From NCBI GenBank assembly GCA_015061525.1, contig SUWK01000014.1, positions 1-48,207 on the forward strand: DNA of 48,207 nt. Reading direction: 5' to 3'. The position numbers and the translations under genes were made by a program. Below are positions 1,553 through 36,265 of the stretch, one piece after another. The stretch comes from Lentisphaerota bacterium. GTDB lineage: Bacteria > Verrucomicrobiota > Lentisphaeria > Victivallales > Victivallaceae. Below the pieces are notes generated by a model. That model made no database searches and was not told the origin of the DNA. It saw only the letters and a program-made list of their open reading frames with translations. Numbering within the stretch: the first letter of the stretch is position 1; every line of letters begins with the position of its first letter.

Positions 1553-2542
1553 TTAATGAATATCGCCATGCCATAATGTTCCATTCGGTGACAGCGGAAT
1601 GTTTTCCAATTCGGTTCTGGTTTTGTGACCTGCGTGTCCGTCAAAGAATGCCATATTACTGCCTTTTGCATGGGTAGGTTCCAGAGAATAAAGGGTATCG
1701 CCGTTGCGCCGGACTGTAAAACCGGTATCGATTGTACCACGGGAATCGGCAAGAAGCATTACCCCGGAGGTGTTATTGAACAAAGTCATTTTCCGGTAGA
1801 CAAACAAATGACTGTTGCCGAAAATATGCAGTCTGCTGGTTTGGGAAATATTTACCCCGTAGTCCCCCGTACGGCCTTTCGGATTGTGGCGCGGATAATT
1901 GTCTTTATCACAGTAGCCGTAGCTCGGCTGATTTTTGGTTTTCTCCGGCAGCAAAGACGGCATTGACGGACACTCATAGACCTCTTTGGAACTATTGGTA
2001 TAGGTCCAGAACATATCCACCCAGGTCGGTTCAAGTTTCGGTGACCCCTGGGCCGTTTGGGTATATGCGGCTGTGTAGCCGTCGTTGTCGTCGCAATACA
2101 TATTGTGCGCGACGCCGAGCTGTTTTATATTGTTAGTGCATGACGACTGCATACCGCGTTCACGGGCGGAGTTGAGAGCCGGCAGCAGAATCGAAGCAAG
2201 TATCGCGATTATCGCGACGACCACCAATAGCTCGATCAGCGTGAACGCTGATCGAATGAAGCACAGCTCCGCTGTGTGATGCGCAGCGTTGCTGCATGAA
2301 GCGTTTGCCTGCGGCAAACATGAAGCACTTGCTTTGCAAGTATGATGCGGCGTATTTTTGTGAGCGGCACTCTCCGTATGTTTCCGTACACATCCGTACT
2401 GATCCGTACAAATAAAGCGTTTGAAAAAATCACGGCAGAGTTGTGAGGTGACCACCAGAAGTTCGATCAGCGTGAACGCTGATCTGGTGCAGTTGTATTG
2501 TATTGCCGGTTTTGCAGACAAATGCATTCTGTTATTTTTCAT
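1553..2542 (-). CDS. Prepilin-type H-X9-DG protein P1, interrupted by an in-frame hairpin element
   Basis: A 329-residue type II secretion/pilin-like protein. The class III signal motif [11 protein letters not shown] occurs twice, with Phe at residues 23 and 100. Only the second copy continues into the usual hydrophobic helix ([21 protein letters not shown]). The 77 intervening codons are a hairpin array that stays open in frame and encodes a Cys/His-rich peptide. The C-terminus has the typical [12 protein letters not shown] (H-X9-DG). Deleting 231 bp would restore a normal prepilin. The SD is AAGGAA. Its ATG overlaps the LacI stop as ATGA, so translation is probably coupled. Such proteins are thought to be pseudopilins or surface proteins; whether this one is processed at either motif is unknown. 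Confidence 0.85.
2233..2440. repeat. Hairpin element inside prepilin P1
   Basis: Perfect hairpins on the plus strand include CGATCAGCG-TGAA-CGCTGATCG (2233-2254) and CACAGC-TCC-GCTGTG (2262-2276). GCAGC-GTT-GCTGC, GTTTGCC-TGC-GGCAAAC and ACTTGC-TTT-GCAAGT follow, separated by TGAAG/TGATG. Next come four TCCGTA repeats at 2373, 2383, 2393 and 2403, exactly 10 bp apart. The element is nearly identical to the one at 35980-36190 in P3. The left hairpin reuses the codons of the second FTLIE as one arm. Confidence 0.9.
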
Positions 2543-17465: not shown

Positions 17466-17781
17466 GGCAGAGGTCGCGTGACCTCCTGCAGCGGAGAATT
17501 TAGGGAGATTTTGTGCGGAAAAGTAGATTTTCAAGGCGGCACAGCCAACCTTTAAGCGAAGCGCAGTAAAAAGAAACACCATCCATACTCCCGACAGGGA
17601 GAAAACTTCACGGGCAGCGTAGCTGACCTCTTCACAAGCGGAGCGTCTTAACAAGCAAGTCGGAACGTTTTTAGTGAAGAGCGGCTTCGCCGCGTGAAGA
17701 TGTGAAGTTGAGCCTGACGGCTCAGTGAAGTGAAGACTTGCGTCTTCGTTATTTTTTTGCCTTGAAATCAAGGCAAAAAAA
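17466..17781. repeat. Hairpin array A4 downstream of tRNA-His
   Basis: Inverted repeats include GAGGTC-GCGT-GACCTC, GCGGC-TTC-GCCGC, TGAGCC-TGAC-GGCTCA, GAAGAC-TTGC-GTCTTC and TTTTTTGCCTTGA-AA-TCAAGGCAAAAAA. Spacers are TGAAG-type. The part at 17660-17770 matches array A3, but the last palindrome has different arm bases that still pair. The array abuts the encoded CCA of tRNA-His. Confidence 0.85.
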
Positions 17782-17859
17782 TGGGGTGGTAGACCGGACT
17801 TGAACCGGCGACCTCCTGGGCCACAACCAGGCGCTCTGACCAACTGAGCTACAACCACC
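17782..17859 (-). tRNA. tRNA-His (anticodon GTG), CCA encoded
   Basis: The minus-strand cloverleaf has anticodon arm CCTGG-TTGTGGC-CCAGG (anticodon GTG), T arm GCCGG-TTCAAGT-CCGGT, and D arm GCTC/GAGC. The extra 5' G pairs with discriminator C73, as expected for bacterial tRNA-His, and CCA is encoded (17782-17784). The acceptor stem appears to have one U-U mismatch at pair 6-67. Confidence 0.93.
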
Positions 17860-25391: not shown

Positions 25392-26309
25392 ATGTTTCAG
25401 AAAAATCAACTCCGGTATACCGGAGTGAAGCAACGCTTCACTCTTATTGAACTCCTCGTAAGTACTGTTATCTCATCATGGCATTTTTTTGCACAAAAAA
25501 GTGCGGTTGCAACTCAACAAAGAAGTCCGCTTTTTTTGAAAGAGAAAGGGGGCGCGGGGGAAAGGGAAAACTTTTTTTCCCGTGAAAAAAAGTTTTCCTT
25601 GTCCCCCGCACACTCATTCACTTTGATCGAATTGCTCGTTGTTATCGCGATCATCGCGATCCTGGCGGCGATACTGCTTCCGGCATTGAACAGTGCGCGT
25701 GAACGCGGCCGTACTGCCAGCTGCATCAGTAATCTCCGTCAGATCGGTACCGCTTCAGCGATGTATACCGATGACAATAACGGCTATTTTGTGGAGTTCC
25801 AGCCCAAATATTTCCGCGGCAACAGCCTGTTGTTTCTCAAGTGGATGCATTCTCTTGATGCCTACACTCCGATGATCGAATTTGTCAGTACCAGCGACTA
25901 TGCCAAATGTCTGGATATTCTGCAGTGTCCCTCTGACCCGAATTTTAACGATGCCTACAACATCGGCAACGACAAAAAAGGTGCGGAAGACAGTCCATCT
26001 TATGGGTACAACTACAAACTCTGTTCGATTGCGGACTCACTGATCTTCAAGTATGACCGGGTAAAATCCCCTTCCAAAAAGCTGATGTTCGCTGATTCTC
26101 TGCACAAAAATTACGGCGACCTCAAATCCACTTCTCCGGCGTGTAAACTGCAGAATCCGAAAGATCTCGCCGGACGCCACAACAACAGTGCCAACATTCT
26201 GGTCGTTGCCGGTCATGTCACCAATGTTGCCGGCAGTGAACTGGATACCATCCGCAACAGCGAAGGCGGTGACAACAGTGCTTATCTGTATCCGGGATTT
26301 GATATCTGA
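25392..26309 (+). CDS. Prepilin-type protein P2, interrupted by a different in-frame insert
   Basis: 305 residues. FTLIELLV occurs twice (Phe16 and Phe76). Between them is a 60-codon insert ([19 protein letters not shown] among others) unrelated in sequence to the P1/P3 element. The second copy leads into the full helix [22 protein letters not shown]. The C-terminus has [15 protein letters not shown], an H-X9-DG motif in which Asp is Ala. The SD is AGGAAAAGAG. It is the last gene after the DUF4838 gene, followed by a strong terminator. Deletion of 180 bp would give a standard prepilin. Confidence 0.85.
25460..25616. repeat. Palindrome-rich insert in prepilin P2
   Basis: The main feature is a perfect 15-bp inverted repeat with a 4-nt loop (25565-25579 with 25584-25598). 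It is extended by an outer GCGGGGG/CCCCCGC stem (25554-25560 with 25603-25609). A smaller GCAC-AAAAAA-GTGC lies near the left end. The insert keeps the frame open and is bounded by the two FTLIELLV copies. Confidence 0.8.
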
Positions 26310-35305: not shown

Positions 35306-36265
35306 TTACTTCCCGTCAAAGTGATTATACGGCAGATATTGCGCGCTGGTCGATGCCCCGTAGGTAAAAGGCGGATACAGATACGGATTGTCAGCAGTGG
35401 TATAACCTGAACCGGAAGAAGCACTCACCGTGACTCCCTGCGCTGCCACATGCCCGTCTGCCCAGGCGAGATTGACCGCTTTGTTGTGACGGGCATCGAG
35501 ATATCCGTACTGATTGCTGGTATCAAACACCGGGTACAGCATAAAGTATCCGGTTCCCATATTGCCGCCGCGGTAAGTATCGGCAAGCATGATCGTCGCA
35601 GACGGCTGTGCCACTTCGCTCTCTTTGAGCGGCTTGCCGAGGTTGAGGAAGTTGTAGCCGTAATGCGCCTTGTATTCGTCACCGGCATTGACAATTTCCT
35701 CCGTCGCAAATGACGGGCAATGCAGCAGCGCACGATCGCTCATATAACCGTTGATTATCAATTCACGATAGAAGTTCAAACTCTGGTGATTACTGGCTCC
35801 CTGACGGAAATACGGGATGAACCAGCCGTCAAAATCATTGCGGTAACCGGTCATTGTAAGTCCCAGCTGTTTCAGATTGTTGATACAGCTGGCAGCCCTG
35901 CCGCGCTCGCGGGCAGAGTTGAGTGCCGGGAGCAGGATCGCCGCTAAAATAGCGATGATCGCAATGACCACCAATAGTTCGATCAGCGTGAACGCTGATC
36001 GAGTGAAGCACGGCTCCGCCGTGTGAAGCGCAGCGTTGCTGCATGAAGCGTTTGCCTGCGGCAAACATGAAGCACTTGCTTTGCAAGTATGATGCGGCGT
36101 ATTTTTGAGAGCGGCACTCTCCGTATGTTTCCGTACACATCCGTACTGATCCGTACAAATAAAGCCTCTGAAAAAATGACGGCAGTGTTGTGCGATGACC
36201 ACGAGCAGTTCGATAAGAGTAAAACTCCTGCGGTTTTCTCCACCATTTTGTAAAGATTTCTTCAT
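35306..36265 (-). CDS. Prepilin-type H-X9-DG protein P3, interrupted by an in-frame hairpin element
   Basis: 319 residues. FTLIELLVV occurs at Phe15 and again at Phe92. The 77 codons between are the same element as in P1 ([17 protein letters not shown] with a few changes). The second copy continues into [21 protein letters not shown], and the C-terminus has [15 protein letters not shown] (H-X9-DG). The 5' sequences before the first motif are unrelated in P1 and P3, so the inserts arose separately or were exchanged between genes. It lies between the 1384-residue GH42-like gene and the GH106-like gene in one operon. The protein may be a pseudopilin whose processing site is duplicated. Confidence 0.87.
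35980..36190. repeat. Hairpin element inside prepilin P3
   Basis: Hairpins on the plus strand are CGATCAGCG-TGAA-CGCTGATCG (35980-36001), CACGGC-TCC-GCCGTG (36009-36023), GCAGC-GTT-GCTGC (36030-36042), GTTTGCC-TGC-GGCAAAC (36050-36066) and ACTTGC-TTT-GCAAGT (36074-36088). Spacers are TGAAG. TCCGTA repeats are at 36120, 36130, 36140 and 36150. The P1 copy differs in only a handful of bases. One difference swaps an A-T for a G-C pair in the second hairpin. Confidence 0.92.

Follow-up and report, generated by a model that had tools for sequence, protein, structure and literature searches.

Prepilin signal codons as a probable attachment site of large serine recombinase elements and of motif-restoring modules in a Lentisphaerota genome

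Prepilin-type genes of a Lentisphaerota bacterium carry short, stop-free modules inside the codons of their FTLIELLVV signal, and these modules are probably non-autonomous, motif-restoring derivatives of large serine recombinase (LSR) elements that use the DNA of this signal as their chromosomal attachment site (attB). The modules occupy a fixed codon position, orthologues of occupied genes are empty in related genomes, full LSR elements are found at the same GT dinucleotide of the motif, the left arm of one module family (module A) is similar to an LSR element end, and one LSR element lies in a motif that was itself brought in by a module. From these sequence relations we infer that the modules are moved by an LSR.

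The DNA analysed, hereafter the window, is a stretch of 48,207 nucleotides (contig SUWK01000014.1, forward strand) from an assembly referred to as G000 (2.83 Mb, 122 contigs, 89.6% complete), and three of its prepilin genes are occupied. The first, P1 (1553..2542, minus strand), is an open frame of 329 aa in which the F of FTLIELLVV falls at residues 23 and 100, with 77 stop-free codons between them, and PF07963 matches residues 98-120, i.e., the second motif. A sequence-only reading of the window had pointed to the duplicated FTLIELLVV and the stop-free hairpin stretch in P1; both are confirmed, and the recurrence of the stretch as 19 pieces in the genome means that it is not a product of chance. 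The in-frame insert likewise stood, while its extent had to be redrawn, since position 2542 is the start codon of the gene and the module runs from 2453 down to 2223. In the direction of the gene, P1 has a left motif (FTLIELLV codons, 2454..2476, minus strand, GT core at 2454-2455), which in A copies generally is host-spelled, followed by the 231 bp of module A (2223..2453, minus strand), which start just past the left GT and include the right GT. The left end of the module is a recombinase-type attachment arm (2420..2453, minus strand), identical at 30 of 34 nt to one LSR element end of G000, the other end of that element being less close. Its body has CTTCA-spaced hairpins, as read from the sequence (2246..2345, minus strand), and its right end is a module-carried motif (2223..2245, minus strand, GT core at 2223-2224). 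Two hairpins of the module, at 2232-2255 and 2303-2319, have stems of at least 7. The left and right motif DNAs of P1 are 91% identical over 35 nt, which is atypical of A copies. The host leader and motif of P1 (2454-2487) also contain a hairpin, GATCAGCGTTCACGCTGATC, that is common to the right end of the module and unlike other aligned A copies; perhaps this sharing reflects an earlier module or gene conversion.

The second occupied gene (25392..26309, plus strand, 305 aa) carries a module B of 180 bp (25460..25639, plus strand), which includes a large hairpin and its own FTLIELLV. The third (35306..36265, minus strand, 319 aa) carries variant 2 of module A, also 231 bp (35970..36200, minus strand). 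At Rfam gathering scores the window holds just two tRNAs. The hairpin array had been taken for the whole element; it proved to be one component of the module, arrays like it are also present outside prepilin genes, and the body of module B is different at the same codons. Intergenic arrays of unlike hairpins spaced by CTTCA/TGAAG are seen at 1-122 and 17540-17790 of the window and in two other fetched loci (L027, 2940-3430; L046, 1-780), those of L027 and L046 being tandem repeats. Prepilin leaders in G000 are a further site of hairpins: 17 of 77 (e.g., window 25423-25443) have a perfect one (stem of at least 7) whose 3' arm lies over the FT codons, against a mean of 0.19 and a maximum of 2 with shuffled leaders and a mean of 8.2 and a maximum of 14 with swapped motif starts (500 trials each). 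By eye, this leader hairpin is kept with changed letters in orthologues of other species.

A search of G000 with the module A stretch gave 27 matches, comprising 19 pieces of module A and short matches. Ten of the pieces are complete (two of them in the window, with the query counted), identity over all 19 ranges from 82 to 100%, mostly 93-97%, and the other nine are cut by contig ends, internally deleted or fused to another module. Since the contig-end pieces (four left parts, two right) may be halves, the number of copies of module A is 17 to 19. The FTLIELLV codon pattern itself has 124 exact places in G000 (60 forward, 64 reverse), compared with 0 for a reversed control. Around 100 listed places out of the 124, plus the module copies, 78 motif clusters were built, which therefore represent less than the whole genome. 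Two to four motifs are present in 28 of them, 34 are without a module, and 16 have a module beside a single motif. Fourteen of these last are cut by a contig end, one (C118) is cut by the end of the stretch fetched, and in C2 the module lies within the contig and its left motif was not recognised. Module A measures 231 bp; module B is 180 or 183 bp, with two hairpin variants and longer forms of 309-342 bp, and rarer types exist too. Up to three modules are stacked per gene, as in the B-A-B arrangement at C85:9554. Further module types with other left arms occur in L027 (C113:40565-40898) and L077 (C33:15916); the C33 module has an arm similar to one end of the G000 LSR element (score 14, shuffle p about 0.0005).

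Among the 78 clusters built from the places listed, 34 of 35 motif spacings are multiples of three and all 34 are stop-free. These 35 spacings, of 16 distinct lengths in all, are not independent owing to shared ancestry; the 270 spacing at C33 includes a run of N, and the exception to frame is a spacing of 181 at C66. The module of C71, cut by a contig end, is also out of frame. Across 13 copies of module A, variable columns are distributed over the three codon positions as 9, 11 and 8, i.e., with no codon-position bias: the module body keeps the frame, yet no constraint on its peptide is seen. Frame retention is what would be expected if the inserts were old prepilin protein domains duplicated along with their genes, a reading that we regard as scarcely credible: it is contradicted by empty orthologues, by the same module appearing in different prepilins within and between species, by different modules stacked in one gene, and by the even spread of variable columns just given.

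The empty sites are as follows. The P1 orthologue in another genome of the genus, G012, is 59% identical and has no insert at its start. The genes on either side of it correspond to those flanking P1: on one side a LacI-type regulator, with 257 of 333 residues identical, and on the other a GFO/IDH/MocA oxidoreductase, with 369 of 389. The module B gene has no insert in three genomes, namely G023 (81% identity, with the upstream gene shared), G021 (76%) and G006 (74%), where the spelling of the motif is close to that of the left motif in G000. For the 35306-36265 gene, no orthologue was found in the genus at E 1e-40. This comparison of occupied and empty sites, which the sequence-only reading had proposed, bears out its view of an insertion that keeps the frame, leaves a motif at its far end and behaves as a mobile or recombining unit. 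With orthologues of two genes empty, the insert is not shared by all relatives, and the old-domain reading was rejected.

Module A is spread through the genus. Matches occur in 27 of 34 genomes, many of them short hairpins, and 15 of the 33 genomes other than G000 have a module A stretch of at least 100 nt at 94% or more. All 17 loci with long matches that were inspected (L030-L044, L057, L058) have a prepilin motif at the module end. Of ten A loci of other species, nine yielded a usable host protein; their best matches to the fetched G000 prepilins are at most 35% over at least 76 aa, apart from one of 65% over 26 aa. The A copies of other species thus reside in genes without a close counterpart among the G000 prepilins fetched.

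Full LSR elements are found at the same place in the motif. In G000 (contig C18), a 6,026-bp element splits a prepilin gene that has a long B module, at that module's own motif. A 587-aa LSR with PF00239 (residues 4-51 only) and PF07508 lies beside the left end of the element, whose ends are inverted repeats around GT. The element also encodes a small serine recombinase (PF00239, HTH_7; L028 3660-4244) and a homologue of Staphylococcal nuclease (PF00565; L028 6653-7156). In G144, a 5.73-Mb single-contig genome of the same class, two different prepilin genes contain two identical 1,895-bp blocks; the identity begins and ends with the GT of the first Val codon, beyond which the host DNA differs. 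The block ends read AGGTTCCT and AGGAACC, with GT on both sides, and a single long protein was recognised within the block, an LSR (PF00239, PF07508 and a zinc ribbon just under the cut-off). When the flanks are joined across the elements, an open in-frame prepilin results in all three cases. The full elements in G000 and G144 share the 2-bp core between both ends, with the arms as inverted repeats, and on this sequence pattern we assign them to the large serine recombinase mobile elements, with recombination activity predicted. TP901-1-type serine integrases likewise combine PF00239 and PF07508 and have inverted repeats around a 2-bp core; by tblastn, the G144 LSR is 25% identical to the TP901-1 integrase over 65% of the query.

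Recombinases of this kind extend beyond the two genomes. Searched across the family, the G000 LSR has matches in 28 of 78 genomes, many of them weak, the better ones often adjoining prepilin genes cut between V and IAII. With an LSR profile, 17 of the 288 genomes searched in the phylum yielded relatives at E 1e-30, and no close relative of the G000 LSR was seen in the other 33 genomes of the genus, many of which are incomplete. A scan of genome contigs added one distant Omnitrophota locus. IMG/VR gave no match with P0002 and four loci with the LSR profile; the closest of these, L220, is 35% identical and belongs to a viral contig of 21 kb, the fetched part of which has no prepilin motif. Against the PDB, the profile had no match at 1e-5.

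Broken prepilin ends were present in the fetched stretch at 23 of 50 LSR loci, in 15 of which 50 a junction is found 72 to 152 bp from the start of the LSR. A tree of the loci that were long enough (47 rows) contains a clade of 24 (SH-aLRT 99) in which 21 have a broken prepilin nearby, compared with 1 of the other 23 rows, this last (L215) being on a very long branch. The broken-prepilin label requires 5 changes on the tree against a shuffled mean of 16.0, none of 500 shuffles being as low, a figure that is helped by near-copies such as the two LSRs of G144. In L136 and L140 the broken prepilin is near the LSR, not flush with it, and in L156 and L203 the distance is 0.9 and 1.2 kb; L203 has two marks, one of which is an intact prepilin misread as broken by the rule used. 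In three clade members (L201, L134, L139) no broken prepilin turned up within the stretches searched. A previous tree, with 30 rows, gave a similar division, with nine junctions and two nearby cases among 16 and 0 of 14 outside. Within the clade, PF00239 and PF07508 are found in 12 of 12 aligned members and the zinc ribbon in 7 of 12; Y7, R9 and S11 are invariant in the LSRs. An LSR outside the prepilin clade (L171, near 10265) appears by eye to lie within a gene that has a GPPGT motif, interrupting it.

The module junctions point to the same dinucleotide. Module A begins after the GT of the left first-Val codon and ends with the GT of the right one, and all copies with a readable junction in the alignment are at one motif of prepilin genes. 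The 16 A copies with a readable left motif have 16 different spellings of it (23-mers), in a tally made without C28a, whose variant arm is outside the pattern. In contrast, 12 right motifs fall into four near-identical spellings, TTYACRCTGATCGARCTATTGGT; a 13th row is the window's own left motif, whose leader matches the module end, and is not counted among them. Varied left motifs and near-uniform right ones led us to reject a target-site duplication. All 21 copies of module B scored have A directly after the left GT. After the right GT (n = 30) the base is G in 9, C in 9, T in 8 and A in 4, resembling the 34 module-free genes (C 11, G 11, T 8, A 4). Among the A copies, 6 of 16 have a base other than the expected G after GT; the 17th copy, C28a, has G. 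Upstream of GT, some B right motifs are spelled as in the host, an outcome that a crossover of 2 bp would not produce by itself.

These junctions would be accounted for if the attB of the LSR were the prepilin signal codons, with the GT of the first Val codon as the crossover core, which is exactly where the full elements split prepilin genes. Module A has an element-type arm on the left, followed by a stop-free body and its own FTLIELLV ending in GT. An LSR would move modules in trans, a circular module junction (motif-GT-arm) presumably recombining with a motif-GT site that is empty. Once inserted, the module would have the host motif on its left and its own motif on the right, in frame. The gene would still encode a prepilin, now with a long leader, and the motif brought in would be a landing site again. 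The frame would be kept by selection for a working pilin, and the second motif is probably the one that is cleaved. Recombination of motif-GT-arm with an empty motif predicts a host motif on the left, a module motif on the right and a rebuilt landing site, which matches what is observed.

Several observations go against a simple form of this mechanism. The textbook reaction joins attP with attB, and the modules, with one arm and, at the right end, half an attB with no arm, do not fit it. The variable base after GT and the host-like tails of some B right motifs count in the same direction, as do the rarity of this LSR in the genus and the absence of a B-arm LSR among the fetched loci: in 89 LSR-side loci (duplicates included), the best match to the module B arm has 12 mismatches of 34, the B module beside the G000 element excepted, and the module A arm has at least 11 mismatches everywhere except in G000's own element. 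With the LSR ends of G000, the B arm shows a weak likeness (p about 0.01 and 0.06, single-letter shuffles). The three clade members in which no broken prepilin was seen, the two loci whose broken gene is not flush with the LSR, and the unbiased codon positions of the module body also weigh against the proposed explanation.

The main rival remains homologous recombination between motifs, by which modules would spread among prepilin genes by recombination or gene conversion through the shared motif DNA, the LSR having created the first module only. We think this unlikely, although it deserves weight: the 124 exact motif copies offer the homology, some B right motifs look like host-module mosaics, the base after GT varies in A copies, and an LSR of the prepilin-cutting type is undetected in most module-bearing genomes of the genus. 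The change from host to module sequence, however, falls at GT or beside it, with A as the next base on the left of all 21 B copies scored and left motifs host-spelled throughout in the 16 A copies. In a motif of about 25 bp with synonymous differences between genes, crossovers arising from homology would be expected to vary more along the motif. LSR-driven movement is the reading that we favour.

Other known repeats and elements resemble the modules in part. A Rickettsia palindromic element is a palindromic repeat whose insertion points vary among genes that are unrelated, and it shares with the modules a stop-free, palindrome-rich sequence placed in frame inside coding genes. The modules differ in having a single insertion point, a recombinase-type end and their own copy of the target motif, and each is a mosaic of arm, array and motif. 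The suggestion that Rickettsia elements are the nearest analogue was therefore set aside in view of the one fixed dinucleotide and the match of the A left end to an LSR element end. In REP/RAYT mobile units, a tagged hairpin is served by a Y1 transposase. Such units and REP/BIME sequences are like the modules in being non-autonomous, short-tagged hairpins, whereas here an array combines hairpins of differing sequence and the unit does not end in hairpins. That the TGAAG/CTTCA hairpins are the mobile unit, moved by a Y1 (RAYT-type) transposase, is very improbable in our assessment: CTTCA-spaced hairpins do occur inside and outside prepilin genes and the genome has one Y1_Tnp match, yet module B follows the same GT without a CTTCA array, and module ends are an arm and a motif, not tagged hairpins. 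This candidate was rejected after a PF01797 search, which returned a single Y1_Tnp gene with no visible hairpin array beside it.

Integron gene cassettes are also small and stack at an attachment site that is repeated; here the target is spread over many genes and the recombinase is a serine, not a tyrosine, enzyme. A site-specific integrase usually has a single attachment site or a few of them. In this genome the site would be a codon motif common to a large gene family, which would give one recombinase many landing pads. Compared with known serine integrase elements, what differs is a target formed by the protein-signal codon motif of a large paralogous family, together with 1.9-kb copies in which only an LSR is recognised and LSR-less modules that leave the gene readable. 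According to Durrant et al. 2022 (PMC10083194), multi-targeting LSRs are those in which one recombinase type enters several genes, with repeated sequences at several sites as a possible cause, and multi-targeting was linked there to relaxed specificity and DUF4368. The present case differs in having one conserved motif, and the word "pilin" occurs 0 times in the main text of that paper. The literature searched, with subscription papers outside its coverage, contained no account of the prepilin motif as an attachment site or of motif-restoring modules. LSR elements are well known and multi-target LSRs have been described; within the sources covered, the proposed attachment at the prepilin motif and the motif-restoring modules appear to be new.

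More tentatively, a recombinase clade may have adopted as its attachment site the conserved codon motif of a protein signal, of which this genome has about a hundred copies, and spawned frame-compatible half-attB cassettes that rebuild both gene and site, giving integron-like stacks in pilin-like leader peptides and possibly a switchable leader. The modules represent a route by which foreign DNA enters highly constrained codons and leaves the gene readable. If the proposed explanation is true, the target of these recombinases would be natural, repeated and long, and the modules would explain the long N-terminal extensions of prepilin-type proteins in this group.
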